64,000 bases of DNA from Apostichopus japonicus. Its lineage: Eukaryota; Echinodermata; Holothuroidea; Aspidochirotida; Stichopodidae. Shown here piece by piece: positions 13,786 through 57,626 of this stretch (position 1 is its first letter; each line of letters starts with the position of its first letter). The notes below the pieces were generated by a model. It saw only the letters and a program-made list of their open reading frames with translations, ran no database searches and was not told where the DNA came from. The position numbers and the translations under genes were made by a program. The DNA lies in the NCBI RefSeq assembly GCF_037975245.1, contig NC_092577.1:22656398-22720397 (forward strand). Reading direction: 5' to 3'.

Positions 13786-13788
13786 AAG

Positions 13789-15456: not shown

Positions 15457-15551
15457 CAAATTTTCAAATCGCTTTCCTTGTGGCAAGACAATGTAGGCCA
15501 TTTCAATTTCTCATCGTCGTGGCAACATAGTGTTATCAATTAGGAAAATAA
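15457..15551 (-). repeat. 5S spacer after insertion B
   Basis: The sequence resumes the long spacer interrupted at 11068 and runs into the short-spacer segment before a 5S gene. Confidence 0.8.
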
Positions 15552-15644
15552 AGGCCTACGGCACCCAGTATTCCCAGGCGGTCACCCATCCAAGTACTGA
15601 CTGCGCTCTACATTGCTTGACTTCGGTGATCGGACGAGAACCGG
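15552..15644 (-). pseudogene. 5S rRNA, 3' half, split by LINE C
   Basis: This holds nt ~28-120 of a 5S gene on the minus strand. It ends in CGGACGAGAACCGG (15631-15644), directly followed by the T-run of the LINE C tail. The matching 5' part of a 5S gene with the same 14-bp duplication is at 53347-53387. Confidence 0.9.
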
Positions 15645-17713
15645 TTTTTTTTTTCTCTTTTATTGAAAGATGAAGCCACTGGCTCACCCATACGCAAACA
15701 GTAATGAGAGTAGTATACAACGATTTAAAAGTAGAGTAAAAAAATATGAGACTATATAGCAAGTTCAATGAACAGAGAATTAATAGTATGACATAGAGTA
15801 AATACGATATTGAACCAGGATTACTGAAAATGTAACTAACACAGAAATGAGAACAGACGTAGACTATACAAATAATACTAAAAAAGAATAATTTTCAGTC
15901 GAGGCTAATAGAGGATGCCTTGAGTCAAAAAACAAACGCTGTCAACTGTCGAAGTTGTAGCTAAAATCGTTCTCGGTTCTGTATCTTATTACAACATTTT
16001 CTTGCCCGAACATATCAAAGAAAAACTGTGTACGATGCATCTTTTTATAAACCTGGAAAATAGTGTTAAGTTTCTTTTTAAGTGAAACATGAAAAAGAGT
16101 CAATAAGTTGACGCTGTAGTTATTAATTATGTCGCTACTATTACAAACTTGAAAACATGTATAGCTCCATATTGTGTTTTTGTACAAGTTAAAGATGTAG
16201 TCGATTAAATTTCCCTCGAGTTTCTTACGGTTAAGCCCGGTCCCAAGCAGAGTAGCAATACGCCACTGTCTTAGGTCGTTGGCCTTATAAACTTTCCCCA
16301 GTTTAGTAACGATGAAATTCCACATTGTATTTACCTTAACACAATCGATAAACAGGTGGCTTAATGACTCGCTGGCTGTTCTACATAAAACACAGCTAGG
16401 TGAGTCGATGATACAAAATTTATATAGCTTCTCATTGGTATACAAGATATTATGCATAACTTTGAAATCAAGATCTGCATCATGAAACATTTTAGGAAAT
16501 CTATAGATATTTGACCATCTATTTTCAAAGTCGGTATCTGGAAAAGTAGTATTCCAGTAACTTTCACCTTTAGGTATGGAAGTGTTAACAGAACGGAGCA
16601 GATTAGAGGCAATTTGACATGTAATTCCAGATGCATCGATGTGTTTGTTCCCATTCATGAAACGAATGCCGCAATTAGGGTCAGGTTGCGACGACACAAT
16701 GACATCGGATGAATAAATGGCTTCCAGCCATTCGGATGGGAACGCTTTAATTAGGTTGGAGATTACATCTTGTACCTCTTTCACACTAAGTGTATTATCA
16801 GGATTTGCCAATGCAATGCATTCATAAACGGCTTCGGCCGGGAGGTGTGTTGGTATAATCTCGTACATAAGATCACCCACCCGTATAATGCCACCATCAA
16901 TGAAATTTCTATTGAAAAAGGTTTTGTCCTGATCGTCGCAAATCAGTGGGTTTTGGAATAAAGGTTGTAATAAAATTTCCTTCCTCGTAATGGGCCGGCA
17001 AAATTGTGTAATTCTCTTCCAGGCAAGCAAAATTTCCCTGTAGTAGGGGTATAGATTACGCAATGATTTGCAATTTGGAAGATATATGTGCCTAGAAGCA
17101 TATTTTCGTAATGGTTTAGGTTATATAACAATGTGGCGAAGCTTTTGACTTATAGTACCTTTAATAAGTTTACTGACAGTTTTGATTCTGAGAGAGTCTC
17201 GAAGAATTTCAAGGTCGCAAAGCTTGAGGCCCCCTTGTTGTACTGGGAGCAACAGTGTCCCGTACTTAATCAGTGGTTTTTTACCGTTCCAAAGGAATTC
17301 GATAACACTATTGCGGATAGTACTGATAACCCAATCGGGGGTGGCGAGGATAGACATTAGATAAACAAGGCGGGAATTCACCAGTAAATTAATCACCAAA
17401 ACTTTACCCTTGAAAGATAGTTTTCTGAATATCCACCGCCGCAAGACCAGTCCGCATTTATTGACCTTTTCTTCCCAATTAGTAGTTTCTAATTTGTAGT
17501 GGTCATTTCCAATAGCGACACCTAAAATTGTAATATAGTCGTGTCTAACCGGGAATTTGAACTGATGGTCGGCCAAGGGTCAACGACCGAGGGCAAGGGC
17601 TTCTGTTTTGTTGTAGTTGCACTTTGAGCCTGACGCTCTTTCGTACAACTCAATAACACGAAAAATTGAACTGATACTAGAAGTATTCGATACAAACAAG
17701 AGCCCAAGGGCAC
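15645..17713 (-). mobile_element. LINE C, 3' half of a Tx1-type 5S-targeted LINE
   Basis: The minus-strand LINE begins (3' end) with a T-run that is its poly-A tail, then a 3' UTR resembling that of LINE D. It holds ORF2 from just downstream of the reverse transcriptase active site to the C-terminus. It ends near 17700-17715, where non-array DNA begins. No 5' target-site copy is present here. The expected partner is E at 49796-53346. Confidence 0.85.
15942..17710 (-). pseudogene. LINE C ORF2 C-terminal part
   Basis: Three frame pieces follow each other: 17710-17580 (LLFVSNTSSISSIFRVIELY, then ERASGSKCNYNKTEALALGR), 17576-17121 (thumb region, LSFKGKVLVINLLVNSRLVY) and 17063-15942 (C-terminal domain with the cysteine motif CVLCRTASESLSHLFIDC). 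Each aligns in order with LINE D ORF2 downstream of HADDTTFF. At least two frame changes separate them. The reverse transcriptase fingers, palm and endonuclease are absent. Confidence 0.8.
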
Positions 17714-17726
17714 TGTGGTTCCTTGC

Positions 17727-18555
17727 GTAGGGGTATATGACAATACACATAATATTATCAAGCAAAATTGGGCTCATATAGTCCAAGTAATTGTGGTCCT
17801 ACATGTAACCATAAAGTAACCATTTGAACACAATAGCCAACACTTTTGTGATCACAAATTGTGTTCGGAGCACTCTTTAGATCTAAATATGGCATAAAAA
17901 ATGTAAGAAATATAAGGTTATATACAAGCGGGTCAACAGATATGATAACATTGCTGACCTCAGATGACATGACCGTTAAGTTTGAAAATGTTCCACCACC
18001 CCATTCACAACTTGTCCTAAAATATCAACCGTGTCACACTTTGGCATTGGGATTTAATTGCATTAAATGTCTAAAAATTAACTTTAACTTGTATGTACAT
18101 AACTTCACACACAAAGGTCACCCGGAGGTCAACCCATTGACATTTTTGATCGGTTGGACGTGAATATGGCATCAAAACTGAAAAATTCAAACATTTTTCT
18201 TTGCCCATTTTCTCCCCCCCCCCCCAAAAAACTATTTTGTAACATTAATTGACCTTTGGTGACCTCGGATCACATGACCGTTAAGTTTGAAAATATTCCC
18301 CTATACCATTTGCAACTTGTCCCAAAATATCAACCATGTGTCACCTTGGCACTGGGAGTTGTTTTTGTGCGGCGCGTAAACCTGACGATACCCTAAGCAT
18401 TGTTTGTACGTCCGAGGACCTTTGTTCCTATTGAATCTGTCTTCCGAGGACTTAGAATTCCTTTGTTCAAGTCCTTGGACTTGCTGCAAAACATGCCGCA
18501 TAAAGACACACACACCAAGTTGAATGCATAGATTCCTTTTGCTATAAAAGCAAGG
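17727..18555 (+). repeat. TGACCT-rich repeat with terminal hairpin
   Basis: From about 17940 this region carries the satellite family found at 44.3-49.6 kb (tgacctcagatgacatgacc, then gttaagtttgaaaat). It ends at 18531-18557 with the same hairpin-plus-aaaaatg end as the right edge of the 32-kb unit, preceded by a short CA run. It looks like a diverged copy of the element end. No gene is seen. Confidence 0.65.
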
Positions 18556-18557
18556 AA

Positions 18558-20385
18558 CCAAAAATGATATGCGGAGACTATGGATTTAGTTGTTTCAGCA
18601 AAAAATATATTTCTTTTTTTGAACAAGTCAAGGTGGCAATACTGTTAAAAAAGAGAAGATATGTTAAAAAGGAAGTAATGATAAAACTTTTAATATATTA
18701 CGTAATATGTTACTGCATCCGATGTTAAGTTGTTCATGTGATAGATGAATTTATGAAACTAAGTGACTCTGAATTTATCTTTAACTTATAAGAGCTTGAT
18801 ATAAAAGTGTTTTGTCTACAACTTTCTAGTTCCACTCCCACCCTTTGTTTTTATCGAAATTCTAGTAATCGCTAAATATTTGTAATATGATGGTGAACAG
18901 TTTACCTTGTCCATTTATATGGTTAAGTGACAATTTTTGAACTTAATATAGCTCTCTTCACACAAGGTGGATCTGAAAGTGTTTTATGTATAATTCCGTC
19001 ACACTTTTTCAGACGGAAACTTAAAAAAATATCAAATCTGATGGAACTGTACAATAGTTTAAAAAAAAATAGTTGATAAAGTATAGTTAATAAAGAAATA
19101 GATAAAGTATAGTTAATATTAAAAGAAATGGTAAGAAATAGAAGGTGAAGTTTTGAACTGTACAGAAGAGATATAAAATTGTTTGAAATGTATGCAAGAT
19201 AGCTTCACACCTGGTGACAATATTGTTGATGCTTAGTATAAAATATAAGTGTTGTGTATAACTCATGCCCTTCACACTCATACTCAACAAGAAGAAAAAC
19301 ATGACAAATATGTTGCAACATACTGTTCTATCGTGTTGGAGCAGATAAGATAATTGGTGCTTCCCAAGATAAGGTGTATGGATCTTTTGTTTTTTGCCCC
19401 CTCCTTTCCCCCCCCCCCCAAGTTTTTTGGAGCATATAAATATATACCAGAGAACGAAAACGTTCTATGGTTCCGATATTTGGGTCTATAACCAAAAATG
19501 ATATGCGGAGACTTTTTTGAACAAGTCAAGGTGGCAATAATGTTAAAAAAGAGAAGATATGTTAAAAAGGAAGTTATGATAAAACTTTTAATATATTACG
19601 TAATATGTTACTGCATTCGATGTTATGTTGTTCATGTGATAGATGAATTTATGAAACTAAGTGACTCTGAATTTATCTTTAACTTATAAGAGCTTGATAT
19701 AAAAGTGTTTTGTCTACAACTTTCTAGTTCCACTCCCACCCTTTGTTTTTATCGAAATTCTAGTAATCGCTAAATATTTGTAATATGATGGTGAACAGTT
19801 TACTTTGTCCATTTTATATGGTTAAGTGACAATTTTTGAACTTAATATAGCTCTCTTCACAAAAGGTGGATCTGAAAGTGTTTTATGTATAATTCTGTGA
19901 CACTTTTTCAGACGGAAACCCCAAACAATCTCAAATCTGATGGAACTGTACAATAGTTTAAAAAAAAATAGTTGATAAAGTATAGTTAATGAAGAAATGA
20001 GTTAATATTAAAAGAAATGGTAAGAAATAGAAGGTGAAGTTTTGAACTGTACAGATGAGATATAAAATTGTTTGAAATGTATGCAAGATAGCTTCACACC
20101 TGGTGACAATATTGTTGATGCTTAATATAAAATATAAGTGTTGTGTATAACTCATGCCCTTCACACTCATACTCAACAAGAAGAAAAATATGACAAATAT
20201 GTTGCAACATACTGTTCAATCGTGTTGGAGCAGATAAGATAATTGGTGCTTCCCAATATAAGGTGTACGGATCTTTTGTTTTTTGCCCCCTCCTTTCCCC
20301 CCCCCCCCAAGTTTTTTGGAGCATATAAATATACACCAGAGAACGAAAACGTTCTATGGTTCCGATATTAGGGTCTATTTACAGA
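18558..20385. repeat. Tandem duplication, two ~0.9-kb copies
   Basis: Copy 1 starts at accaaaaatgatatgcggag (about 18557) and copy 2 at the same words (about 19492). Both end after gaacgaaaacgttctatggt plus a few bases. They are highly similar, with small indels and T-run and C-run length changes. No protein is recognised, and the short frames inside are unsupported. Confidence 0.85.
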
Positions 20386-20926
20386 CATGATTTTGTGAAT
20401 ATTAATGAGTTAAGCTCTGCTCACTCATTAATATTCATAGGACACATAGCAAAAACAATAGGGATCGTCTTCTCACTATGGGGATTATAAAAAGTATGGT
20501 AGCAATACAACATTTTTTTTATTGAGTTGTCGTAGTAACAAGCTATTTGAGTGACTAAGTATTAACTCGCTCACTCATGAATACTAATGATATGAAATTT
20601 GCTGTTCATATAATTTTGTTCCTACTATAAACTAACATAATCATACCAAGTATGAAGCTAATCGGACATATGGTTACAATGATATTGACATTTTAATGAT
20701 TTTACATTATGCCCTGCCCACTCATTAATATTCATAGGATGCATACCAAAAACCAAAAACAATAGGGATCATTTACTCACTATGGGGATTATATATACCA
20801 AGTATGGTAGCAATCCACCATTTTGTTCTTGAGTTATAGTTGTAACAAGGTCAGGTGTCAAACACATACAAAGATACACGCAAACACACACGCCGACTAG
20901 ACTGCGTAGGGCATCAGAACAGTAAC
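20386..20926. repeat. Degenerate ~300-bp repeat
   Basis: Two similar modules are present, each with cactcattaatattcatag, caatagggatc and tcactatggggattata, at about 20405-20560 and 20705-20850. Weaker relatives occur near 21990-22240. The region ends in a CA-rich stretch before the stop codon of the downstream gene. Confidence 0.6.
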
Positions 20927-23900
20927 CTAAAGGCAAAGCGACTTCTTTGCCTTTGTTTTTACATTTGTTGAAGTGGTGGCAGGTGGCACAGCTAGGGCCA
21001 TATCTTTTATGATAGCTCCTTGTACTCGAAACTTGTACTTTGTACTCCCGATTGTTTGGAGCTTGGAGTCCAGTGTAGCACCAGCGAGGAAGATGTCAGT
21101 TCTCTCTACTGGGAGGGTCAGCTGTCTGAAATCATCTTGATGCAGTACCATGAAAAGAATGTTTCCTTGTTCATCCACCTCTGCACCACTAATTTCACTT
21201 AAGACTTCTGTAGTCTGTGGTTCATGAATCTGCAACGAAATGAAAAGTGAAAAAAAAAACAGTTTAGGTCATATTGAGCCACCCAAGGTGTTTTTATATC
21301 AGTTAGGTACACTAGATATGGATGTTCTAGGTAACTTAATTGCTCTTTGGAGATTGGGATTTCAGTATGGTGCCTGGAGTAGGAAAGTGAAGAGTTTTAG
21401 TATTAGCTTATTTGTTGGATTATCATTCCACATGTTTTCTCAACTATCTGAAGTCATTGATATGTTATTAATTGAGAATATTATTTCAGGACTCAAAATA
21501 ACTGACGGCACTGTTAGTTAGGCTATCATACTCTTGCTGTCGGTTGCTGTACCCCATAATAAAATCCTTCAAAGTTGAGAAAAATTGATAGCCATTTGGT
21601 TGTGCTTTCATATTATTCCCAGCCCTGTTGTATGTACTGAGTGTGGTACAATTATCAAATGAGTATCTACATATGTTTGTTGAAGGCCTATAAATTTTCA
21701 GAGAAAAGTTTTCTGAGCTTTGGCTTCAAAACAAAAGGAAGTTACTGGCTTCCAAACAGAAGGAAGTTACTGGCTTTAAAAGTTGTTAGTTGGCATTGAA
21801 ATGATTATAGTTACTAAGATGAACTCCATTGTGATTTGTTTTCTTGTTTTTTAAGTTTCAAGTTGAAGTACTTGAGATATGGTATTATAAGTGGTGTGAC
21901 AGACACACTTACAAACAAGTGGACTGCACAGCTTCATGTTGCTTCTAGCAAGGAATCAATAGTTGACATTTTAAAGAATGTAATGTCCTACCATCATTAA
22001 TATTCATGAGATCGATACCTTATAAATAGGGAATGTCTACTCACTATAGGCCTATAATTATTCATTTTGACACTGCTGAGAATATTACAATTGGCCACGC
22101 ACTTCATTAATATTAAATGATCAATACTATAAATACAACTTTGTTAAAAATCAGTCATGGACTTGTTAAGATATTGACCACCTACTAGTAAATATTCACA
22201 AGGTTGGTGCTAAAATCAATATGGATTGTCTACTCACTACTGATAACTTATGTACCCAGTATAACATTAATTGACACAAGCATAGCTAAGGAAACGTGAT
22301 TATAAACAAATAAGCCAAATTACAATTAGTGTTGCTACTTGAACATTAATGAGGAGAAATTTTTAACCACTTGCACACATACATTACCTACTGTGTCATT
22401 AAAGCAAATGCATGTCTAGTTACAACCTGTGTGTCATTCAAGCACTCATATATTCTGGTTTTGTCCAATGCACACAGAGTTATTAAATTTTGAAACACAT
22501 GTTTTTTGTTTACATTTCATATTTTCTGCATTAGTGTTAGGTGTTAGATATGCTTTGTCTTGGGAATGGAGATGTGTGTAAGATTACATGTGAAGGTTGT
22601 ATTTTGTGGTTGTACTTACTGTTATGGTGGACTGGCTAGTTGTTCCTAGGGCAAGTTGCCTCAAGTACTTGTCATCTTTCACTGTCACATATGTGACAGT
22701 GACCCTGTCTCCAGACTTTGCTGGGGAAGTTGAGGCAGTATTCCATAGGGCCATTGGTCTTGTGATCCCGTCCTGCATTATCTTTATATTTCGAACTTCC
22801 TGTCCGCTGGCCACTGTGCGTGTGGTTTCATCCTGTTAGAAACCAAGAACATTTTTCTTGTAAACAGTGTGATTGGAAACTCATTGTCAAGGTTGAATGT
22901 AATTCATTACATAAAATTAAAGTTCGAAATGGGGCAGGCAGTGGGACTTGCTAGCTCATCATAGGTTGGGCAACTGTTGTTAGGGTAACTTATGGTTGCA
23001 CGGTTACTTGGTCTGACCATGAAACCTGTTTAACCATGGTTACAGTTTAACTCTGTTATCATAACTGAAAATATCTTGTTAACCCGAATAATCAATTCTT
23101 AATAACTGCACATTAACCAGAATAAAAATTTAATGCTGCAGCTGAGGCTCCAAACTCGACCATTTGATCAGCCAAGGACAAACAGGATCTAACATGTGTA
23201 ACGGTTGGACACCAAACCATTCTACCATCGATACATGCCACTGGAGACATTACAATGCACATAACTGTCATGATACATTCTAAAACTGTACCACACTATA
23301 GGTTCAAATTTACTCTTACTTCATTGAAAGTGAATATGCTATTAATTAGTTTACCTCTACTTAATGTTGGACACCAAATGTTACATGTGATAGATTCTTA
23401 CTCTTTCCTAAATTTCAGAAAAACAAACTGCTTCTGGCTTAAAGCATTAATTCTATATGCATTCAAATATTTCAGTCTAAATACTTTTTGGTTCTGTAGC
23501 TAATATGTGTTATGGTACTTCCATAGATCCACAGAGTTATGAATATTACCTGGAGTATACTTACAGTTTCATCTAAATATGTTGTATCAAATTATAAACT
23601 TTTATTTACCTGAACAATTTCTCCAGTTATAGTCATCAGCTTCTGTGGAGTTCCTGGCTTTGGTAGCTTCACATCTTTCAATGACACAAGCTGTGGTTGT
23701 GGTGGATTCACCAAGTGTCTAGCAATATCCAGTATGTTTTCACTGATATTGTTTATTGCAGGGGCATTGGTCACTTTTGTGTTTTTGTTGAATATCAGGC
23801 AAGACCTGCCTTTTTGAAAGTTCCGTATCAGGAACGTTTTGCCGGTCTCTAGTTTTTGTTGTATGTCTTTATTGTAACAAACTGCTTTGGTTGCAGCTGT

Positions 23901-24026
23901 AACATCTGCGATACCTAAATTAAGGATATCACCCTGAAGCTTGGTTTCTACTATGAGAACTTTAGTTCCCTTTGGATAAGGACCAGAGGACTGCCCAGAC
24001 TGAATGATGTTCTCTAAGGTGTCCAT
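20927..24026 (-). CDS. Three-exon OB-fold (RPA-like) protein gene
   Basis: Exons on the minus strand are 24026-23610, 22832-22620 and 21229-20927. All borders are GT-AG and all introns are phase 0, giving 310 residues. Exon 1 starts MDTLENIIQSGQSSG and ends MTITGEIVQ. Exon 2 continues DETTRTVASGQEVRNIKIMQ, followed by the RPMALW strand. This ITGEIV...R.I.I.D...LW pattern is typical of replication protein A OB folds that bind single-stranded DNA. An acceptor-like CAG lies directly before the ATG, so a 5' exon may exist upstream. The gene sits downstream of the Helentron on the same strand; some Helitrons carry RPA-like genes, which makes a role as the element's single-strand-binding partner plausible. 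It could instead be a captured host gene. The frame is intact across all exons. Confidence 0.7.
21230..22619. other. Intron 2 of the RPA-like gene
   Basis: The interval lies between donor 22619 and acceptor 21230 on the minus strand. It includes diverged copies of the cattaatattcat repeat near 21990 and 22080-22240. The plus-strand frame at 21240-21521 has no recognisable motif. Confidence 0.6.
22833..23609. other. Intron 1 of the RPA-like gene
   Basis: The interval lies between donor CAG/GTAAAT at 23609 and acceptor CTAACAG at 22833 on the minus strand. Nothing else is recognised inside. Confidence 0.65.
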
Positions 24027-26348
24027 CTGTATGGAATAGAAACCAAGATGTGTAAGAATTAGATAATTTATAATAATAATACAAATTGTAATTAAACAAA
24101 TCAGTTGAACTGTAGTTTTGTTTGACACAATTGTGTATATAGGCCCAGGGGTGAATTTCAGTAAATTTAGGGGCAGGGCCATTTGACTGTGGTTTAATCA
24201 AATTACCCCAATACTCGGCATGTAGTGTTAACTACATGAAGCAAGTGTCTTGTAGATTCTATTTCGGTACTAATTTTGATTGCAATGACCTAGAAGTTAC
24301 ATTTAAGATTTTTTTGAACTAAATTAATTGTTGACTTACAATTTCGTATCACCATATTATATTTGAAGATAATGCATTCCTTATGTTTGGCTGACAACTC
24401 CAAATGCCATCATTCAGTTGTTATGGGGACTGTGGCATTGCCAGGGGGTGACTAGGGGGAAGGCTATGTTTCCCATAAATAGTGTGTTACGGAGTGTTAA
24501 AAATTTCTCCCATATAAATTGAGAAAAATCAAGTTGTTTAATACAGCACCAGATTGCTTTTAAGGACCCATAAATTATCAAAAAAATTCTCTAAGTGAAG
24601 GGTTAATTTCAATCTTTTGTATCATGTTTTTATCGGTCTTATTATAAAATGTAAATCGCAGAGACTAACCCTCCAAAAAAGCAATTCTTGAAAAACAAAT
24701 TATGCATGTTGCTCCGTCTGCGAAATCTCAGCTATGCTGGGCAGGGGGACACCCATCCCTTTTATATCCCTCTCTATCTCAGCATTAACGGATAAACATT
24801 GTGCCTTCAATTAGGTGCTGTGCTCCTAAGTTGAAATGTTTGGCAATGCCACTGTATGGAGATAACAAACTAAATGGGCACATGAACAATCACACACCAA
24901 CAAGGCCATGAATGCTAAATTATTTTCCCCTGTACAATGATTAACATGCATACTAAGTTTGAGCTTGAAGTTTGCATTATCGAAATCAAAGTGTTTACTA
25001 AGGTTACAGTGTATGTCCTCCATTGGAGATTGGGTTGTGAAAAAAGTACTTGTCATGTTGAACATTGTGGGAAAATGTAGGTACACTTGTGTACCTGCTT
25101 TTGTCATAAGTTACTTACCTGTAACTGACAGTGCCCAGAAAGTTAACTTGTTTATAGCATCATGCCCATTTTTGTGGGGGCATGCTCAACCAGAAATGGC
25201 TGCAGTAATAATCAAGTACTTGTAACATTGGTAGTGTAATGTAGAATTTGTTGTGTGGTATAGGTAGGGGTTAGATTTTGTTCAATTTTGTAAAGCAAAG
25301 TTTTACACAGCTTCACAGAGTTTACTGGTTGGGTATCAGGGTCCCCCAAAATTAGTTACCTGGTCTAGGTACTTTCTGGTATTGCTATTTTTAGGGTTTT
25401 TCTTTGCAGATCTGATAGCTGATATTTGTTCACAATATCAGCTGATATCTGATCCTATAATTTCTTCAGTGTTTTTGTTTTAAATGGAAATTTGTATGCA
25501 TTGGACAATGCACAATTCTGAATGGTTGTTAGACTGTTTGCACTTCAAGTATACTGCATACATCATTCATATACTTCTTACAATTTTCATAGGTTGAGCC
25601 CACATGCAATTTTTATCAAAGCATAAGCATAGGTCAAGGGCTAATTACGATCAATGATCAAATGACCAAAGCCTTGAAACAAACTAGGAGAGGGATGTAT
25701 CATGTTCATTAGAAATAATAAGAATTGTTACGAAAGCATTGTTTCAGGTAGCATGCATGGATTTTATGTCAATGTTGATGGAGAAGAAATAGGCCAGTTG
25801 ATTTCCTAAAATGATTCAAGTGGAGTTGCTTCGTTGTTTTGTTCTTGGGCGATATTTTTAATTTTACACATTAGGTCAATGAGACTTCCCCATTGAGTTA
25901 GCTGTATGTGAGGAAACTTGCACACTAAAATCCTATTGATTTTGTTGTGTAAATGAAGACTTGTTTTAGTCATTTTATGATAGCCTAATTGATGTGACAA
26001 TTAGTATCTGAACTTGATAGGCTGTATGATATAAGAATTGGTAGCCTATTTAAAGAAGCCTTTCTTGATCTAGGCAAACAAGTGATCATTACAGTGTAGT
26101 TCTTGATCTAGGCAAACAAGTGATCATTACAGTGTAGTGTAGAGTACTGATAAACCAATTGGTTGATCGAAGTGACTGACAAGGAGGAGTGGATTATTAC
26201 AATAAATTGCTAGTATAGAATTAGTTAGTACAGTAAATTATGTTGTGTAATTAAGTGTATTGACAGTAATTGTTAACAATTAAAGGAAGTTGTTGGAGTT
26301 TGTAGTTGTATGGTAAGCACATAGGACATATGGTACACATATTCTGGT
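24027..26348. other. Spacer between the RPA-like gene and the Helentron ORF
   Basis: No gene is recognised. It holds an exact 38-bp tandem duplication (26062-26137). The region may contain a 5' exon and promoter of the RPA-like gene, since an acceptor-like site precedes its ATG. Confidence 0.4.
26062..26137. repeat. Exact 38-bp tandem duplication
   Basis: The words ttcttgatctaggcaaacaa and the next 18 bases occur twice back to back, in two apparently identical copies. Confidence 0.9.
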
Positions 26349-26735
26349 TTAACTTGTTGTGTTTTCATGGAAGTTCTGCAACGAAATCCAAGTTGCTTTG
26401 TGATCACTGTAATAGCTCTCAAGGACTCCACTACCAAATATTTTACTTGTAGGAATGTTTGTGTATATGTGATCTAAGCATGAGTTATAGTCTGTTGTAG
26501 GAGTAAGTATGATTTCTTTGTAATTGTATGTTCTTGTGAATAAAGTAATCAGGCTTTTACTGTCTGGTGTGTTTTGGAGTACATCAACATTGAAATCACC
26601 AGCAATCAATGTTGGTTGTGAATGATCTATGTGACTTAAAAAGTTACTCAATGCATCATGGAATAGTTGCATGGGAACCTTATTAGACCTGTAAATTACT
26701 GCAATTTGAATAGTTCCAGCACATGTCTTTGGTTG
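26349..26735 (-). pseudogene. Helentron endonuclease C-terminal part, out of frame
   Basis: The frame shifts near 26730 and continues as VIYRSNKVPMQLFHDAL, then LIAGDFNVDVL, CLDHIYTN and SDHKATWISL. GDFN and SDH are the catalytic asparagine and histidine boxes of AP-type endonucleases. It completes the domain begun at the end of the Rep-helicase frame. One indel accounts for the break. Confidence 0.85.
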
Positions 26736-29700
26736 TCAGGGAGATTTCAATGTTATTTGTATTCAGTGTATGTTCAGTCAGTGTTGTGATATTATTCTTA
26801 GTGTAGATCACAGTGCCATATGGGGAATTTGAGACAGGAGCATGAGATGGGATGTTTTTGAATAGTGTAAATCCTTCAATGTACAGCTCATCATTTGTGA
26901 TTGCTTCTGATAAATGGCATTCAGTGAAAAGTAGAATATCAGCAGATGTGATTGTGCTGTCATGAATTATGTCAGAAATGTGTCTCTTCAGTGATCTTAC
27001 ATCTTGATGAATGATGGTAGTGCTGTCTGTACTTTCAAATACATGGCTGCATGCTTTCAATGATCGTATGGATCGTAAATTTTCTACTTCCTTGACAACA
27101 TTTCGATCGACGTTAATCTTGTCAGGATTAAGATCAAGAATGTATAATCCATTTATGGAAGTCACTCTACTTAATGCAACATAGTGGATGTGACATTGTG
27201 ATCTAGCACCTGACATATCAACAACTATCTCTTTCATTGTATCTCCTTGACATCTATGGACTGTCTTTGCAGTTGCTGGTCTGAGGGGAAATTGTTTCCG
27301 CACAACTTCTGCATTTTTGTTGCGACCAATCCTGAACTGTCGACTACTTCTTGATATTGGTGTCCATGTTGAAGCAAGCTTTGAATGATACAGTTCTCTT
27401 TTAGAGTGTCGACATGCTTTACCTACAGTAATGTCATCGAACTGTACCCATATAGTGTGAATGTTCTGATCATGTACATTCTCTATATACTTGATGATAC
27501 CAGAAGCACCATTAATCATTCCATCTTCAACTGAAACATTGAGACAGAGGTCAATTCGTTGGTCAATGGCCAATGATAGTTCAGTGAATAATCCCATTGT
27601 CTTTTGAGGGTTGTCCGGTATGCAAGTTAGTATTTTCTGTTTGACTGTGTTTGGGACATCACCTACGACAATGTCTTGAGATCTAATTGTGAGCTTTAGA
27701 GTGTCTAGTTTGGAAAAAACTTCATCATTGTGTGAATTAACTTTTAGGTTGGTTTGATAAACATGTGTAGCATTTGATGGAACGTTGTCGACTGTACATT
27801 GCCTAGTGTTCAGCAGCCTTAAATCATCATCTGTTTGATTGCCTTCTCTTAGTCGGTTTAAAAGTTGAGCAAAACTCTGGTCATGTTTTTGTCGCATGAT
27901 TTCAGTTAGTTCAAAGGCCATAAAATGGTCTTTCCATAAATTAGATGCTAATGGGCCATAATCTTCAGTTAGATCATTAAATATCCATCCATCAAACACT
28001 GGCTTGAGTTGAAAGAGATCACCAACAGCAATAATGCTAACACCTCCAAATATTTTCTTACTACCCATAATTTGTTGCAGTCTTTTATCTATGAATGTTA
28101 ACATTCCATTACCAACCATAGATATTTCATCAATGAAAATGATTTTCAAATTTCTGAACTTCACCCGAAGTGAGTTTAGCTTGTCTGATGTTAATGCCTT
28201 GTAATGAAATCCTTGACTAGCTGGAATGAGTAGAGCACTGTGAATGGTATTGCCTTTAATACCATAAGCTGCTTTGCCTGTTGGTGCCATAAGAAGAATG
28301 TGAGTATCATCTGGATCGCTTCCAGGCTGGCTAGAATAGTATCTCAATAGTGCATTGTACAGAGCTTTCAATACTTGAGATTTTCCTACACCAGCTCCGC
28401 CAGTGAGAAACGTGTACATTGGTTCTTGTTTTGTTTTGCACCAATGCAGTACATAGTAGAAGAAGTCTTTCTGTTGTTTATTGAGGCTGCGTACTAGAGT
28501 TCTGTATTCGGAATCAGGCAAGCGAGGTTTTTGCAATTCTTCTATGTTTGCACTATTGACTGCAATCCCAATGTCTTGTCCAATATCATACAATTCAGGT
28601 GATTCATTGGAAGGGATTTTCACTTGCTGTTTATCCTTTTCATCTCGATGAGCCTTTTCGATATGTTCTGTATTTGGTGCTATCTCATCATACATCTCAG
28701 GGTCTTCATTTTCAATATCATCTATTGCCTGGTCAATGATATCTCCACTGTGGTTATATTCTGCTTCCTTCTCTTTAATCTTGGATTCAACCTGGTGGTA
28801 TCGTTCTTGGTAAGTATCACATGACTCTATGATATTATTCTCAGATCTCCAAGGAAAAAACAACATCAGTTGCTCTCTGTAGTACTTTTCTGCATCATTT
28901 TCCTTGTTAAACCGAACATATCTGATGATCTTGGCTTTGTTTCTCTTTCTAAAGTTTAATGCACCAACAGTATAACATTTGACCTCACCAGTATCCTGCA
29001 TATCATGGTCATCAGTATTATCATGTGATTCATAGTCTTGGGCAATGCTGTCTTTGTTCAATTTGATAGAAGGGTCATCATCATTTTCATCTGATTCATA
29101 ATCATTGTTAGTGCTCTCAATTCTCTTATTGTCACTAGTGATTTCGAACCAAGCTGCAAAGTCTGCAAGGCAATAATGTTGTAGTGCTTTAGGTCGGACA
29201 GCATACTTCCTGATAAGTCCCATACATTCTATATCTGTAGAGTAATCTGGCAACTGTTGAATATATTCCAATGGTTTGATCAGGATTGTTCGATCTTCTA
29301 ATGGTGAGGTATTTATAAACACAAATTGCCTAGAGGCTTTTCTGAGTGGCATTTGTAATACCAAATACACTGCTTCCTGAGCACTCATTTCAACATGATT
29401 AAGGAATTTGTTTCCAATGTGTCGTACTTGCTGTTTGATGTCCATGTTCCCTTCTCTTGCTTCTGTTGTTGCACGCTGCATAAGGTTACTCATACCTCTT
29501 TGTCCTTTGCTAATGTAAGATACAATGTACATGGCACATGCATATGGGTCGAGTACATATTGAATATCCATATTAGCTCTCCAAGTTTCTAGCAAGACTT
29601 TATTGTAACCATTAATTCTGACTTCAGATGGTGATCTTTTGAGAAAGATTTTGTCTGATGTTATGGATGAACGTATGGCAAGAATGTAGTCTCTTTCTGT

Positions 29701-33455: not shown

Positions 33456-33779
33456 GACAGAATATTGTGGACAACAGTTTCTTTTGTTTCAACAGTTTCA
33501 ACAGTTCTTTTTGGACAACAGTCTTTGTGGGATAGTAGTGCATATAGAGAGTGATTGACTGTAAATGCTGTTCTGAATTTTGAATTCTATCACAAGAACG
33601 TGATCAGAATTGTGTGTTAATTTTTTGGAATTTTTTTTATTGCAATGCTTGGAATTCAAGTACTCTTTGTATCCCTGTGTAATTCTAGTTAATATTGGTA
33701 AGTGCTTTTTGAGTGCTTAAAATTGTTTTCTGTAAAAGTTCTTGTTGATTTGTCAGTAATTTTGAGCAATTTTTCAGGG
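33456..33779. other. Upstream region of the Helentron ORF
   Basis: T-rich sequence directly 5' of the OTU ORF start. It should contain the element's promoter or 5' UTR, but no specific signal was identified. Confidence 0.35.
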
Positions 33780-43390: not shown

Positions 43391-43433
43391 TGTGTGAAGG
43401 GAAGGTGCTATGTCGGAAGAGTTATATAATATT

Positions 43434-43434
43434 G

Positions 43435-43490
<56 letters not shown>
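43434..43490. repeat. (TA)n microsatellite
   Basis: A long uninterrupted alternating TA run. The length may be unreliable in assembly. Confidence 0.95.
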
Positions 43491-43492
<2 letters not shown>

Positions 43493-44300: not shown

Positions 44301-47300
44301 TACCCTGTCACCCCTTGGCACTGGGAGTTATTGCATTAAATGTCTGAAAATTAACTATGACCTCGTATAACTTCACACACAAAAGTCACCTGGGGTCAAT
44401 CCATTGACATTTTCAATCAGTGAGCATGAAAACTATACAAATTCAAACATTTTTTTCTTTCCCCATTTTCTCTCCCCAAAATACTATTTTTTAACATTAA
44501 TTGACCTTAGGTGACCTCGGATCACATGACCATTAACTTTGAAAATATTTCCCTATACCATTTGCAACTTGTCCCAAAATATCGACCGTGTCCCACCTTG
44601 GCACTGGGAGTTATTGTACTAAATGTCTGAAAATTAACTTTGACCTCTTACAACACATACAAAGGTCACCTAGGGTCAAGCCATTGACATTTTTGATCGG
44701 TGAGACGTCAATATAGCATCAAAACTATAAAAATTCAAACTTGTTATACTTTGCCCATTTTCTACCCCAAAATACTAGTTTTTTAACATTAATTGACCTT
44801 TGGTGACTCTGATCACATGACCGTTAAGTTTGAAAATATTCCCCTATACCATTTGCAACTTGTCCCAAAATATCAACCTTGTCACACCTTGGCACTGGGA
44901 TCTATTGCATTAAATGTCTGAAAATTAACTTTGACCTCGTATAGCTTCGCACTCGAAGGTCACACGAGGTCAACCTATTGACATTTATGATCAGAAGGTA
45001 CCTTTAACATCTGAAAATAGAATTGAAACTGTAAAAATCTCCAAAACACTTAAAGGTCACCAGAGGTCAAATTGAGGTCAAGGGTCACCCAGATGCAGAT
45101 CGACAATTGGATTGCATTAAAGCAACTCCCAACCCTAACAGACAAGTCGTTCTCAAGATATTGCAAAAATACTAGTTTTTTATCATTAATTGACCTTTGG
45201 TGACCTCAGATCACATGACCGTTATGTTTGAAAATATTCCCCTATACCATTTGCAACTTGTCCAAAAATAACCAACTGTGTAACACCTTGGCACTGGGAG
45301 TTATTGTACTAAATGTCTGAAAATTAACTCTGACCTCTTATAACTTAACACACTAAGGTCACCTAGGGTCAAGCCATTGACATTTTTGACCGGTGAGACG
45401 TGAATAAAGCATGAAAACTATAAAAATTCAAACTTTTTATTCTTTGCCCATTTTCTCCCCCTAAAATACTTGTTTTTTAACATTAATTGACCTTTGGTGA
45501 CCTCGGATCACATGACCGTTAAGTTTGAAAATATTCCCCTATACCATTTGCAACTTGTCCAAAAATATCAACTGTGTAACACCTTGGCACTGGGATCTAT
45601 TGCATTCAATGTCTGAAAATTAACTTTGACCTTGTATAACTTCGCATACAAAGCTCCCCTGGGTGTCAACCCATTGACATTTTTGATCGGAAGGTACCTT
45701 TGATATCCAAATCTAGCATCAAAACCAAACATTTTCTTTTTCACACGTTTTCTCCAAAAATAAGCACATTTTTCCTAATGTGACCTTTGACCTTTGACCT
45801 TGGTTTCAGATGTAGTTTGACCTCCTGATTCCAAAAAACAACACGACAAGTCTGTACAGCCATCCTAACTCCGACCAAAAAACTTTGACCCCATATAACT
45901 TCACACACGAAGGTCACACGGGGGTCAACCTATTGACGTTTATGATCAGAAGGTACCTTTGACATCTGAAAATAGCATCGAAACTGTAAAAATCCCCAAA
46001 ACACTTAAAGGTCACCGGAGGTCAAATTGAGGTCAAGGGTCACCCAGATGCGGGTCGACAATTGGATTACATTGAAGCAACTCCCAACTAGTGTTTGCAC
46101 GGGTTACCCGGGTACCCGGGTACCCGCCCGACGTGATACTACCCGGTTCCTAATTTATTACCCGAATCCTAAGCAAAGTGTGATTTAAAAAAAAAAAAAA
46201 ATGGCAACCGACGGTTAGGCAGATTTCCCATTGTCTTAGTGTGGTGTTAGGCTACAATGTGGTCGAAGATAACAGCAATAACGAAGGGGCCCGCTCTACG
46301 CGATACTAAACGGTTCCTAATTTATTACCCGAATCCTAAGCAAAGTGTGATTTAAAAAAAAAAAAAAATGGCAACCGACGGTTAGGCAGATTTCCCATTG
46401 TCTTAGTGTGGTGTTAGGCTACAATGTGGTCGAAGATAACAGCAATAACGAAGGGGCCCGCTCTACGCGATACTAAACGGTTCCTAATTTATTACCCGAA
46501 TCATACGTAAAGTGTGATTGTTTAAAAAAAAAAATTGCAAACCGATGGTTAGGCTGATTTCCCATTGACTTAGTGTGTTGTTAGGCTACCATGTGTTCGA
46601 AGATAACAGCAATAACGAAAGCTTTCCATAGATATCTTATAACTGCGTCACAATTTCAGCTAATAAACAGATGGCTAGGCTAAACTACCCCCATTGACTT
46701 AGTGTGGTGTTAGTCAACCATGTGGTCGAACGTAACAGCAATCACGAAAGTATTCCATGGATGTCTTATAACTGCGTCACAACTCCAGCAAATAAAGAGA
46801 TGGTTAGGCTTAGCTTGATTTCTCATTGACTTATTGTGGTGTTAGGCTACCATGTGGAAGAAATTATTATTTATTCATTCGTTTATTTCAAAGAAGGAAA
46901 GGCTGACAAGGAATTTTACGCGATGTTTATGGATTATAGATAACTAAAAAATAGTAATCGGAAGTGGCTTTTTACTAATCGTTTATTCCAAATGTGATCA
47001 AATTGCGCGAATCGCGCAATCTCGCGGCTAATGCGAACCCTGGGCCTGCATAGTAGATAGTAGTAGTATTAAAAACTGTTTAAGAGCTAAATTGGATATT
47101 TATATGGTTTGATCCAATAGACGTGCACGAGCTAGCATAAGCAGCGGCGGCAGTGCGATGTTAGTAGTAATGCTAATTATAATTAAATAATTAATTTATT
47201 AACAAGTTAATGAAAGAAACAGAAGCAAATAAAAACTATTGAGGGAGGTTTTATACCTCATCTTACACCTACGTATTTGAACATGAAAACATTGTCAGTA

Positions 47301-49600
47301 GAGAATATAATGCATTTATTACAGCATCCAATATGTAATTTCTTGAAAATCGTGATACACGAGGGTAAACAAAATTTTTCCGGGTACCCGGATACCCGAC
47401 GGGTAACGGCCCTCGGGTACCCGGTTCCCGATTTTTGGACCCGTGTAAACACTACTCCCAACCCTAACGGACAATTTGTTCTCAAGTTATCGCAAAAATA
47501 CTAGTTTTTTAACATTAATTGACCTATGGTGACCTCGGATTACATAAATGTTAGGTTTGAAAATATTCCCCTATACCATTTGCTACTTGTCTCAAAATAT
47601 CAACTGTGTAACACCTTGGCACTGGGAGTTATTATACTAAATGTCTGAAAATTAACTTTGACCTCATATAACTTAACACACAAAGGTCACCTTGGGTCAC
47701 CTTATTGACATTTTTGATTGATGAGACCTAAATTAGAGCATCAAACTATACAAATTCAAACATTTTTTCTTTGCCCATTTTCTGCCCCCAAAATACTAGT
47801 TTTTTATCATTAATTGACCTTTGGTGACCTCGAATCACATGACTGTTAAGTTTGAAAATATTTCCTTATACCATTTACAACTTGTCCAAAAATATCAACC
47901 ATGTCACACCTTGGCACTGGGAGTTGTTGCATTAAATGTCTGAAAATTAACTTTGACCTTGTATAACTTCGCACACGAAGGTCTCACAGGTGTCAACCAA
48001 TTGACATTTTTGATCGGAAGGTACCTTTGATATCCAAATCTAGCATCAAAACCAAACATTTCCTTTTTTGCTCGTTTCCTCCCAAAATAAGCACATTTTT
48101 CCTAATGTGACCTTTGACCTTTTGACCTTGGTTTCAGATGTAGTTTGACCTCCTGATTCCAAAAAACAACACGACAAGTCTGTACAGCCATCCTAACTCC
48201 GACCAAAAAACTTTGACCCCATATAACTTCACACACGAAGGTCACACGGGGGTCAACCTATTGACGTTTATGATCAGAAGGTACCTTTGACATCTGAAAA
48301 TAGCATCGAAACTGTAAAAATCCCCAAAACACTTAAAGGTCACCGGAGGTCAAATTGAGGTCAAGGGTCACCCAGATGCGGGTCGACAATTGGATTACAT
48401 TGAAGCAACTCCCAACCCTAACGGACAATTTGTTCTCAAGTTATCGCAAAAATACTAGTTTTTTAACATTAATTGACCTATGGTGACCTCGGATTACATA
48501 AATGTTAGGTTTGAAAATATTCCCCTATACCATTTGCTACTTGTCTCAAAATATCAACTGTGTAACACCTTGGCACTGGGAGTTATTATACTAAATGTCT
48601 GAAAATTAACTTTGACCTCATATAACTTAACACACAAAGGTCACCTTGGGTCACCTTATTGACATTTTTGATTGATGAGACCTAAATTAGAGCATCAAAC
48701 TATACAAATTCAAACATTTTTTCTTTGCCCATTTTCTGCCCCCAAAATACTAGTTTTTATCATTAATTGACCTTTGGTGACCTCGAATCACATGACTGTT
48801 AAGTTTGAAAATATTTCCTTATACCATTTACAACTTGTCCAAAAATATCAACCATGTCACACCTTGGCACTGGGAGTTGTTGCATTAAATGTCTGAAAAT
48901 TAACTTTGACCTCGTATAACTTCGCACACGAAGGTCTCACAGGTGTCAACCAATTGACATTTTTGATCGGAAGGTACCTTTGATATCCAAATCTAGCATC
49001 AAAACCAAACATTTCCTTTTTTGCTCGTTTCCTCCCAAAATAAGCACATTTTTACTAATGTGACCTTTGACCTTTTGACCTTGGTTTCAGATGTAGTTTA
49101 ATCTCCTGATTCCAAAAAACAAAACGAAAAGTCTGTACAACCATCCTAACTCCGACCGAAAAACTTTCACCCCATATAACTTCGCACACGAAGGTCAAAC
49201 GGGGTCAACCTATTGACATTTATGATCAGAAGGTACCTTTGACATCTGAAAATAGCATCAAAACTGTAAAAATCCCCAAAAACACGTAAAGGTCACCGGA
49301 GGTCAAATTGAGGTCAAGGGTCACCCAGATGCGGGTTGACAATTGGATAACATTGAAGCAACTCCCAACCCTAACGGACAATTTGTTCTCAAGTTATCGC
49401 AAAAATACTAGTTTTTTAACATTAATTGACCTTTGGTGACCTCAGATCACATGACCGTTAAGTTTCAAAATGTTCCCCTAATCAGTTCACAACTTGTCCC
49501 AAAATATCAACCTTGTAGCACATAGGCACTGGGAGTTATTGCAGTTTTAATGTTTTTGGTTTTTGGACCATAACTGACCTTCGGTGACCTTTGTGGGCAC
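44301..49600. repeat. TGACCT-rich satellite, ~290-bp units within a ~953-bp higher-order unit
   Basis: The basic unit is about 290 bp. It includes gacctttggtgacctcggat, then ccctataccatttgcaactt, accttggcactgggagttat and attgacatttttgatcgg. A higher-order period of 953-954 bp is visible from accctaacgg at 47461, 48415 and 49368. The two complete higher-order copies are very similar. It is interrupted by a hAT-like element (46089-47454). The same family appears at 17.9-18.5 kb, near the other edge of the 32-kb unit. Confidence 0.9.
46089..47454. mobile_element. Non-autonomous hAT-like transposon in the satellite
   Basis: Terminal inverted repeats are TAGTGTTTGCACGGGT and its inverted form with one mismatch (ACCCGTGTAAACACTA). 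The 8-bp duplication CTCCCAAC flanks it exactly (46081-46088 and 47455-47462). Next to both termini are runs of ACCCGGGT-type words. The interior contains two nearly identical ~170-bp tandem units (about 46130-46470) plus decayed ones (to about 46870). There is no transposase, so mobility would depend on a partner elsewhere. Confidence 0.9.
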
Positions 49601-49795
49601 CAAAAACAATAGGGCACACCTTCTCCATATGGCGGCTCTATGGTCCAAGTTTCGCCTCAATCCAACTTTCCCTTATTGAGATAGAGCGTACCCAAGCAAG
49701 TGTCACAGATGCACACACAGACACACACACACACACACACACACACACGCCAACCTGACTACATAGGTTCCTTTTGCTAAAGCAAGGAACCAAAA
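49601..49795. repeat. Element end: CA microsatellite and hairpin
   Basis: A (CA)n run near 49715-49748 is followed by an inverted repeat, ggttcctt...aaggaacc (49766-49791), at the right edge of the 32-kb unit. The same arrangement occurs at 18500-18557. LINE E starts immediately beyond. Confidence 0.7.
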
Positions 49796-49796
49796 A

Positions 49797-51855
49797 TGTA
49801 GTGTCCTCGGCATGTTGGAAAAATTTTTGCCTCAATATCACAATAAATGATCCCAGAAATGGAGGGGCAATTTTGAATAGCGTCATGGAAGGGTTCACAG
49901 CTTAACACATATAAAATGGCAGAAATTGGGCAACCTTCACGGACACCTCTTGAGACGGGGAATGATTTAGAGATGTGCCCGTTATGCTTAATACAACAGG
50001 AAATATCATTGTAAAGGATTGTAATCCACTTTTGTAATAGAGGACCAAAACCCATTTTTTCCATAACACTAAAGAGGTAACTGTGATTAACTCTATCAAA
50101 AGCCTTGTACTGATCAATCTTAAGTATCAAGCCGTTAGAGTTGTTATCGTTGATAAAGTTAATAATATTCTGCATAGTAATGACGTTTTCAGATATGTCC
50201 CTATTAGGTATACAGCACGACTGGTCATCGGAGATGAGTTCGCTGATAACCTTTGACATTTACTAATTTACTAATAATTTTGTAGTCGGTGTTGAGAAGA
50301 CTTATGGGCCTCCAATTAGTGATATAACTAAGGTCACCTTTCTTAGGAATCAACGTGAGTACTCCAGTTTTCATAGAGTCACAAAGCATATTACAATTGA
50401 AAATTTCGGTGATAAGTTTCTCTAAAATGTTAATAAGATCATACCAGAATGTTTTGAAAAACTGGACGGTTAGGCCATCGAGTCCTGGGCTTTTGTTGTT
50501 CTCCATTGAATCGAGAGCAGCCTTAAGTTCGGCAACTGAGAGATGTTCGTCGCATAGATCTGCCGAAGGGGAGGACAGTGTTCTGGAAATATTCTCGAGT
50601 AGTTAAGTTTTTGATTTGTCGTCTATTGGGTGATCAGTATATAGTTCCTTATAGAAATTAACCTGTTCGGTGATAATGTCCTCTTGTTCTGTAAGAACAT
50701 ATCCATTCTCGGTTGTCAGTTGTCTCATGACTTTTCGTTTTTGTCTACTTTTCTCCAGATTGAGAAAAAACTTTGTTGATTTTTCGCCGTTTTCGTACCA
50801 CTGTAGTTTGGCTCTGAGTGAAATTCCTTTCAGTTCGTCAAGTTCAATCTCATTCAGTTCGCTTTCAAGGCGCTTCAACAAAGTAATATCATAGTCAGGG
50901 AATTTCTGAGCCTTCACTCTTTCATAGTTGAATTGTTTTACTAATTTCGTTTTGAGCCGGCGTTGCTTTTTTTGCTTCCTCTTAGAGTATTTGATAGTTG
51001 TTGACTGTATCGAATGTTTTAGATTGTCGTACCAGGTGTATAAATCAGTTTCGTAGTGGCTGTCGTTTTTGGAATTTTGTATAAGTTCTCTAATACCCTC
51101 ACAGTACTCGTCGTCCAGTAGGAGAGAATTGTTAAAAATCCAATAGCCTGGTCCCCGAGGTAGATTTTCAAAATCCTGGCGTAACATTAATTTATTATGA
51201 TCCGACCGGGGGTATGTTATGTGTTGGCTTACATTAACATTGTAGGCAAGGCTTTTGGAGATAAGAAACCGATCTATTCTCGATGAAAAGGACCCGTCTA
51301 CGGTGTTTCTGGTCCATGTAAACTCGATTTTGTTTGGGTTTCGATATCGCCAAATATCTATAAGGTCAAAATTGAGCATTATATCTTTTAACGGTTTTCT
51401 CGAGCTATCTGAATGCGTTTTCGGTGGGTATCTGTCTTTGTAAACGTTTAAAACGTTATTAAAATCTCCGGTTAGAATTATCGGATTTTGAGTCAGATTA
51501 AGATAGTGGTTCAGGTCAAGGTAGAATTGTTTCCTTTCCGAAATTATGTTGCATAAACTCCGATAATAGTAAGTGGTCGCTGATCCATAGTGACATCCAA
51601 CATTACAACCCTTCCCTCATCGTCGATTCTATGTTTGATAGTATCAATGTCTGCATCGCGTGGAATTAAACACGACACCCCTCTCCTTTTGTCCTTTGCA
51701 TAAAGGGAAGAAAAAACTTCACCACCCCATTCATGCTGGGCGTCTTGGTGGCATTGATCATCATTCCTGTAGAATAACAATGTCGTATCGTTTCTTGTTT
51801 AACATATTGAAAAGTTCCCTCCTCTTTTCGCCGTTTCTCAACCCATTACAGTTTA
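49797..51855 (-). pseudogene. LINE E ORF2, endonuclease and N-terminal reverse transcriptase
   Basis: Pieces in order are LTIITLNCNGLRNGEKRREL (51855 on), an endonuclease middle piece (GGEVFSSLYAKDKRRGVSCL, 51780-51544), a C-terminal endonuclease piece with YPRSDHNKLM (51379-50603), and the reverse transcriptase start ENNKSPGLDGLTVQFFKTFW (50506) with VSRGVREGCPISAILYVL. It ends at the active-site region, which reads QHAEDTTF in one frame. Several frame changes separate the pieces. The Glu in place of the first active-site Asp would itself disable the enzyme if it is not a sequence error. Confidence 0.8.
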
Positions 51856-51867
51856 GTGTTATTATAG

Positions 51868-53092
51868 TTAGCTTGTTGAATTTGGTGCTTTGGGGCTAAA
51901 GTTCCTTGCAGTATGTAATTTCGACGTGGCTATTTTCTTCTTTTGTACTGCTCTGTTCTTTCGGGAAAGGTGTATGTTCCAATCGTCATCGCTGGAGACA
52001 GCTCTCTTTAAGCCTCCTGTTTCGATTCCCTTGTTAATGTTGGTACATGGCTGCGATTGGGGCTTGACCGATGAGGGCTGGCTTCTCGATTTTTCTTTAC
52101 CTTTAGCATTGCCTAATATCACAGTAGATTTACTTTTTGTCGAATTTCGTTCAAGTTTTGTATCAGTAATTGAACCAGGTGCGGCAGCGTCGGTGTCATT
52201 TTCATGTCGCATTTGGGTCACCTCAATTTGGTCCTTGTTCCGATTGGCTTGATCTACCGTGTCAGGAGGTTGCACTGTGGGTTGAGCTGGTGGGCCCCCG
52301 GGTACTGTTTCCTTCTTGGCGCTCTCAGTGACGTTAGAAGGTTCAGGAGGTTCTGACGTTAGAAGGTTCTGTGTCCATCTCACCATTGTCTGAAGGCTTC
52401 TCTGGTTCGACATCGTTATCTTCCTCAGGTGGTTGCTCCGTGCATAGGAAACTTTTATGACCAAAGTTTTGGCATCTAAAGCACTTTACCCTAGGGCAAC
52501 GGCTCTCCGTGTGGCCCTGGTTATTACATTCTCTACATACGTACTGGGGACATTCTTTCATGACATGGGTGTCGCTCAAGCAGTTGTTACAGACTTTAGA
52601 TTGGCTGTTGTGTTTAAGTCTTAGATGTACACCAGCAATCGTAATTGCGTAGGGTAGGCTTTTGGCATTATTTGGCAACTGTACTCTTACGAATCGAATA
52701 CCGTTTTCCACGTCTGGATAGTCGGAATAGTATTTTCGCGTCCATTTGGATTTAATTGAGCATCCGTATTCCTCTAACTTAGCCGAAAGTTCTTCGTCAG
52801 AAATGTAACAGGGTACCCCAAAAAGACTCACCGTTAGTATAAATTTTTCCACTCCGGTAACACTACAATGGTCGCCTTTAATATTAAGGCCGGTTTCCTG
52901 GATAAGTTCCGCATCAGATTCATTCTTCAATGTCACAATCCAGTGCCCTGACGTCTTAACACATCCCACAATTCTATTATTCCCAAGATCCTCGGATATC
53001 GATTTCAGTACGTCTCCATAGCTATGTCCATTGTCAAATACCCTAACACTGTTAGTTTTCAAACGTTGTATTGATGGTTTCGCGGAACCCAT
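51868..53092 (-). pseudogene. LINE E ORF1
   Basis: The frame starts MGSAKPSIQRLKTNSVRVF. It has the family signature LTVSLFGVPCYISDEEL and three CCHC knuckles: CNNCLSDTHVMKEC, CRECNNQGHTESRC and CFRCQNFGHKSFLC. The charged C-terminal part continues in another frame after about 52370, ending SKLHTARNFSPKAPNSTS, so one frame change separates the knuckles from the tail. It is clearly related to LINE D ORF1. Confidence 0.85.
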
Positions 53093-53346
53093 GTTCGCAC
53101 TAGCACACGCCTTGGCGGCCTTCGTCGCCTTGGCGACTTAAAAAATGACCTACAAAACTCCTATAGTTTAACGGACCAAATTGAAACAGTAACAAAAAAA
53201 CCGCTATCATCCAAGAACTTGGATGTTGTAGGTTGAAGAAAAAGTGGAACAAGAAAGTTCGAAAAAAAGGAACAAAGAAAACAGCTAACAAAGAGCACAG
53301 CCAACCGCGCCACGACAGCAGTTGATAGCACGACATCAGTTGACAG

Positions 53347-53387
53347 CGGACGAGAACCGGTATAGTCAACGTGATATGGCCGTAGAC
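53347..53387 (-). pseudogene. 5S rRNA, first ~41 nt, split by LINE E
   Basis: The first ~41 nt of a 5S gene on the minus strand, ending in the 14-bp target duplication. It is the complement of the 3' part at 15552-15644. Confidence 0.9.
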
Positions 53388-57624: not shown

Positions 57625-57626
57625 TG

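Follow-up and report, generated by a model that had tools for sequence, protein, structure and literature searches.

A putative 32-kb Helentron within a 5S-targeted LINE of Apostichopus japonicus

Two parts of a long interspersed nuclear element (LINE) lie about 32 kb apart on one strand of a 64,000-nucleotide stretch of the genome of the holothurian Apostichopus japonicus (RefSeq assembly GCF_037975245.1, contig NC_092577.1, positions 22,656,398 to 22,720,397). Each part is flanked by a piece of a 5S ribosomal RNA (rRNA) gene. The locus raises the question of whether the two parts belong to one LINE and, if so, what came between them. The whole stretch is called the window below, and all positions refer to it. 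An initial annotation proposed one LINE interrupted by later DNA and left the intervening DNA unnamed. We find that a LINE very probably inserted into a 5S gene and was then split by a Helentron, an element of the Helitron2 group.

Two LINE parts and their 5S flanks

The window contains 23 Rfam matches, all of them to 5S rRNA and situated on both sides of the central stretch. Between 15,670 and 53,474 no 5S gene was found at Rfam gathering scores, and a scan of the window for transfer RNA genes found none. The two LINE parts (C and E), their 5S flanks and the unsplit LINE D, which serves as a yardstick, are as follows.

49793-53346, minus strand: LINE half E, the 5' part (5' untranslated region, open reading frame 1 (ORF1), endonuclease, and reverse transcriptase (RT) up to its active-site box)
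15646-17695, minus strand: LINE half C, the 3' part (the rest of the RT, the zf-RVT C-terminal part, 3' untranslated region, A-rich tail)
53556-58916, minus strand: LINE D, unsplit, at the same 5S site
53347-53387, minus strand: 5S nucleotides (nt) 1-41 upstream of E, the last 14 nt (53347-53360) being one copy of the target duplication
15553-15644, minus strand: 5S nt 28-120 downstream of C, the first 14 nt (15631-15644) being the other copy

We searched the entire window by tblastn with four protein pieces of LINE D, without prior limits. E aligns, on the minus strand, to ORF1, the endonuclease and RT residues 9-224 of D; the last of its alignments, a short one, ends at 49,788, about 5 bp past the break. 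C, also on the minus strand, covers D RT residues 223-414 together with the C-terminal part, its alignment beginning at 17,696. The two meet at D RT residue 222-224/223 with zero gap and an overlap of at most 2 residues. The initial annotation had described C as a 3' half and E as a 5' half on the same strand, both broken near the RT active-site box, and the alignment bears this out; an overlap of C and E with different sequence, which it named as counter-evidence, does not go beyond those residues. The break lies directly behind the box: D runs from HADDTTF straight on to FLSDTSS, whereas the last residues of E are HAEDTTF and the first of C are FVSNTSS. By simple arithmetic, the expectation for two independent breaks within 6 bp of each other in a LINE of 5.36 kb is about 13/5,361.

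The domain content fits the same division. LINE D matches PF00098 and PF00078 above the cut-offs and PF13966 below it, C matches PF13966 above the cut-off, and E matches the endonuclease models PF03372 and PF14529 just below theirs. ORF1 of E has no match in Pfam; zinc-knuckle-like cysteines were seen in it by eye. In accordance with the initial annotation, we take C/E and D to be LINEs of the Tx1 type.

E starts directly behind 5S nt 1-41, and the A-rich tail of C stands directly before nt 28-120, the spans that had been noted earlier. CCGGTTCTCGTCCG, common to both outer edges of C/E, corresponds to 5S nt 28-41, and CGGACGAGAACCGG is present in exact copies at 15,631-15,644 and 53,347-53,360. 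LINE D occupies the same position, nt 28-41, with a shared sequence of 12 bp compared to the 14 bp of C/E. The flanks of C and E are one ordinary target duplication around the two parts, as was originally suggested.

A Helentron-type insert and its empty site

The DNA between the halves has termini of its own.

17696-49792, minus strand: putative Helentron (Helitron2 group) insertion, 32,097 bp long, lying in the LINE RT gene between TTTT and T
49766-49792, minus strand: its 5' end, an 11-bp repeat TGGTTCCTTGC (49782-49792) and a hairpin GGTTCCTTGC...GCAAAAGGAACC, behind which lies a (GT)n microsatellite
17696-17726, minus strand: its 3' end, the repeat GCAAGGAACCA (17716-17726), the palindrome GCCC-TT-GGGC (17702-17711) and terminal TCTTGT

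On the minus strand, the first bases of the insert are TGGTTCCTTGCTTTAGCAAAAGGAACC and its last are GCAAGGAACCACAGTGCCCTTGGGCTCTTGT. The inverted repeats TGGTTCCTTGC and GCAAGGAACCA are 11 bp long and asymmetric, standing 0 bp and 20 bp from their ends; an 11-bp inverted repeat in that position was seen in none of 20,000 dinucleotide-shuffled pairs. The 5' hairpin is more stable than its shuffles (z -4.0, 0/200), and a stem of 8 occurred in 13 of 20,000 shuffles. Helitron2 elements are described as having a 5' repeat 0-2 bp and a 3' repeat 20-30 bp from the respective end, a 5' hairpin and a 5'-T (PMC3627910), and as inserting at TTTT followed by T or C (PMC5148889). The asymmetric terminal repeats, 5' hairpin, microsatellite and insertion between TTTT and T thus resemble Helentron/Helitron2.

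Helitron2 elements enter between TTTT and T or C, or within TT, and do not duplicate their target. With the insert taken out, the empty site reads ACATTTT followed by TTGTATCG and keeps the LINE frame. We tried T-run lengths from 3 to 9, and a run of six aligns best to D (score 103, next 92). The target suggested by the LINE frame is TTTT followed by TT; a duplication of TT would look the same as none, and the length of the T-run is inferred from this alignment.

The insert also carries genes.

26683-32520, minus strand: open frame of 1,945 amino acids (aa) with Rep (Helitron_like_N) and PIF1 helicase domains; at its C-terminus an endonuclease appears, by eye, to begin
26352-26735, minus strand: the rest of the endonuclease (Exo_endo_phos), in a frame other than that of the Rep-helicase
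32403-33488, minus strand: frame of an OTU-like cysteine protease (PF02338, E 1.3e-05, 26.1 bits, cut-off 23.3)
20930-24197, minus strand: candidate RPA-like gene in pieces (23592-24197, 22587-22835, 20930-21229), its name inferred

The 1,945-aa frame matches PF14214 (Helitron_like_N, 3.9e-27) and PF05970 (PIF1, 2.2e-23), and what we take to be HUH- and two-tyrosine-like motifs are readable in its Rep part. In the PDB it finds 19 sequences, which are PIF1-type helicases and Helraiser. Among phages it finds 434 records, all below 60% identity, and the 20 of them listed span the helicase part only. Rep, PIF1, OTU and the endonuclease all lie on the element strand. Towards its N-terminus, the Rep-helicase frame contains an array of about 9 in-frame copies of a 63-bp (21-aa) repeat (31764-32322, minus strand).

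Helentrons are reported to carry OTU, endonuclease and RPA genes (PMC4067079). The OTU and RPA genes are frequent in them. The Rep-helicase with an endonuclease and the OTU frame liken the insert to Helentron/Helitron2, which have non-autonomous HINE/DINE-1 relatives. Its domains, termini and target mark it as a very probable Helentron, an assignment that is new with respect to the initial annotation. The start TGGTT and the end CTCTTGT resemble those of a group in Fusarium, for which a start TGCCT and an end CTCCTGT without a 3' hairpin are described; two Fusarium subgroups measure about 6 and 5 kb compared to 32.1 kb here (PMC5148889). Maize Helitrons are reported to reach 39 kb, so the length of the insert alone is no record (PMC6431247).

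The following order of events very probably accounts for the locus. First, a Tx1-type LINE was copied into nt 28-41 of a 5S rRNA gene, with duplication of CCGGTTCTCGTCCG, as both junctions and the identical site of LINE D show. A Helentron then entered the LINE RT gene between TTTT and T with no clear target duplication, leaving E and C, as the element termini at both breaks and the frame-keeping empty site show. Together with the complementary break, these termini and the empty site indicate that C and E once formed a single Tx1-type LINE on the minus strand, C being its 3' part and E its 5' part. The view that the intervening DNA arrived after the LINE is upheld as well, and its approximate bounds of 17.7-49.8 kb are sharpened to 17,696-49,792.

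Several points limit this reading. The 14-nt motif by itself makes no special link between C and E and proves little: with at most 2 mismatches, CGGACGAGAACCGG matches the window 25 times (0.06 expected), and 21 of these places sit in other 5S genes; two more are the C/E junctions and two the junctions of LINE D (53,542 and 58,915). The shuffle test of the terminal repeats was set up after the ends had been seen. The 3' palindrome folds like its shuffles (z -0.34, 64/200, for 20 nt; z -0.11, 84/200, for 30 nt), and with a single 3' end found, the exact base is set by the LINE alignment. The endonuclease matches lie just at their cut-offs (PF03372, 2.1e-05, 24.9 bits, cut-off 24.5; PF14529, 7.9e-06, 26.2 bits, cut-off 27.4). 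The three RPA-like pieces have no match in Pfam, and the first (23592-24197) has none in the PDB. Viral and prokaryote collections yielded no relative of the LINE or the Helentron, which says little about eukaryotes: in viral contigs one stretch matched the LINE RT pattern and none was confirmed, the Rep-helicase had no match and the Helentron 3'-end pattern had 0 matches, and the 5'-end pattern had 0 matches both there and in prokaryote genome contigs.

Divergence from D is a further point of this kind. In raw identity E reaches 54.4% over 675 aa and C 44.9% over 550 aa, a difference that alone would speak against one element. It would suit C and E being separate LINE insertions in different 5S units, joined by recombination or loss within the array; the array has also been rearranged elsewhere, with a strand change near 60 kb. 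We ascribe the difference to the halves covering regions that evolve at different rates, and with the more distant LINE A as a yardstick it vanishes. In the N-terminal RT part E and D share 61.0% (a block of 154 aa) vs 34.6% (74/214) for A and D, and in the C-terminal RT part C and D share 49.7% (191 aa) vs 27.3% (47/172), the ratios being 1.76 and 1.82. E and C are as far from A as D is (68/196 and 47/172). The totals do not include a weak ORF1 block of E and D (D 249-380, 25.7%), two short RT blocks (13 residues at the end of E and 20 residues in C) and other tblastx pieces that were out of frame. The initial annotation had looked for equal divergence of C and E from D; this holds once regional rates are allowed for and fails in the raw values. 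Divergence agrees with one element and cannot prove one, being a weak test because 4-fold degenerate sites are saturated (89/114 and 60/86 differ).

Separate insertions are in our estimate most improbable. The complementary break with Helentron termini on both its sides speaks against them, as does the lack of a 5S gene between the halves at the scores given above. E would moreover be truncated at its 3' end, which is unusual for LINEs.

Arrays of 5S genes and satellites are hard to assemble, and an assembly error could have joined unrelated repeats here. However, a misjoin would hardly give matched Helentron termini, a target of TTTT and T and an empty site that keeps the frame, and we give such an error very little credence.

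A single LINE split by a Helentron would be an unusually clean case of nested insertion, in which the LINE frame supplies the empty site. No second copy is needed to place the ends and the target of the 32-kb Helentron almost to the base, and the order in which the two transposons entered the 5S array is settled. Both kinds of elements are already known, and we do not claim that their nesting is unreported; among the 20 of 8,513 papers that a literature search listed, one bore on it (PMC4067079). The LINE Mutsu is placed in the Tx1 clade. By its description, the zebrafish Mutsu resembles the split LINE in being about 5.5 kb long, having two ORFs and targeting 5S genes (PMC11202950, PMC3706591).

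Build-up of the 32-kb unit

Satellite DNA and a second 5' end are found inside the insert.

44302-49553, minus strand: satellite array behind the 5' end, with units of about 290 and 954 bp and another array (46123-46857) inside it
17951-18560, minus strand: second 5' end of Helentron type at 18560, with TTTT before it, then the satellite of the outer end

The insert differs from the Helentron/Helitron2 elements described above in having several satellite arrays and this extra internal 5' end. The inner 5' end at 18,560 is 80.6% identical to the outer one over 62 bp and stands about 0.9 kb before the sole 3' end found. One satellite lies behind both 5' ends (18,363-17,951 and 49,553-44,302). 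Taken together, 18560-17951 and 17696-17950 look like a complete short non-autonomous element. A similar order of box, microsatellite, satellite array and end box is described for satellite-carrying Helentrons of the Pacific oyster, and some satellite-bearing oyster elements are called non-autonomous in reference titles of the same source (PMC8268682).

A fuzzy search of both strands gave one clear 3' end; weaker candidates, such as that at 43,569 (6/18 mismatches), were not examined further. The next best matches to the 18-nt 3'-end pattern within the insert have 5 mismatches and are the satellite itself, the units of which (44302-49553) share 13 of the 18 bases of the pattern. We considered a separate Helentron with its end at 18,561 and rejected it, as there is no 3' repeat at that place.

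Because the two 5' ends appear to share one 3' end, we tentatively read the 32-kb unit as a compound rolling-circle transposon, in which genes and satellite arrays may have moved in one event into the 5S-bound LINE; we put this at somewhat below an even chance. Terminator bypass is the model given for DNA capture in Helitrons (PMC6431247). Here, replication from the 49,792 end might have bypassed or lacked a 3' terminator of its own and stopped at the 3' end of the downstream short element, a step that we hold with the same reserve. If so, terminator bypass could be tested at this locus on a stretch of tens of kilobases that includes satellite DNA.

The same features may be read in another way, which concerns this last step and leaves the preceding ones as they are. 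A shorter Helentron-type element (49,792-17,696) would have split the LINE, and the coding Helentron and the satellites would have come later inside it. The satellite adjoining both outer ends fits such a nested build-up, and so does the presence of several elements of the family, namely the inner 5' end and 5'-end-like pieces near 20,913 and 21,958, the latter seen by eye and having no blast match to the other ends. A pair of 35-bp inverted ends at 40776-41243, resembling a miniature inverted-repeat transposable element, also lies inside the unit. On the other hand, no other match to GGTTCCTTGCT, with 2 mismatches allowed, lies in the stretch from the coding genes at 33.5 kb to 49,792, the insert has no clear second 3' end apart from the weaker candidates mentioned above, and the genes and the outer ends share one orientation. 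We consider a nested build-up possible, if rather doubtful.

Two further repeats were observed inside the compound unit, as we tentatively call it. A tandem duplication of about 889 bp (96%) at 18615-20391 has a junction that repeats bases around the inner 5' end (CATTTTTGGTT), and tandem units of 1,613 bp (90-95%) occupy 36261-41590. The 889-bp duplication, the pair of inverted ends and the 5'-end-like pieces show further change inside the unit.

Other features of the window

LINE A (6248-10739, minus strand) is a more distant LINE, its RT being 31% identical to that of D. Its start lies at the 3' end of a 5S gene; C, D and E have another target position.

LINE B (11069-15459, plus strand) lies inside one break of a 5S spacer and is either chimeric or a nested pair. 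Its ORF1 (11307-12398) is similar to the ORF1 of the 5S-targeted LINEs, with 60% identity to D over 83 aa and 27% over 378 aa. An endonuclease and RT of a different type follow directly after ORF1 (RT 22.5% to D), and the tail is (AAATC)n-like. A twin-priming inversion pairing B with C was considered and rejected, B being bracketed by its own 5S-spacer break (11,068 and 15,460).

The strand of the 5S array flips at 59868-60313, the genes being on the minus strand to the left and on the plus strand to the right, and the stretch 59686-60495 is 88% identical to its own reverse complement. At 3376-4026 (minus strand) there is an open frame with the Pfam domain DUF6729 (7.5e-13), perhaps another mobile-element gene.

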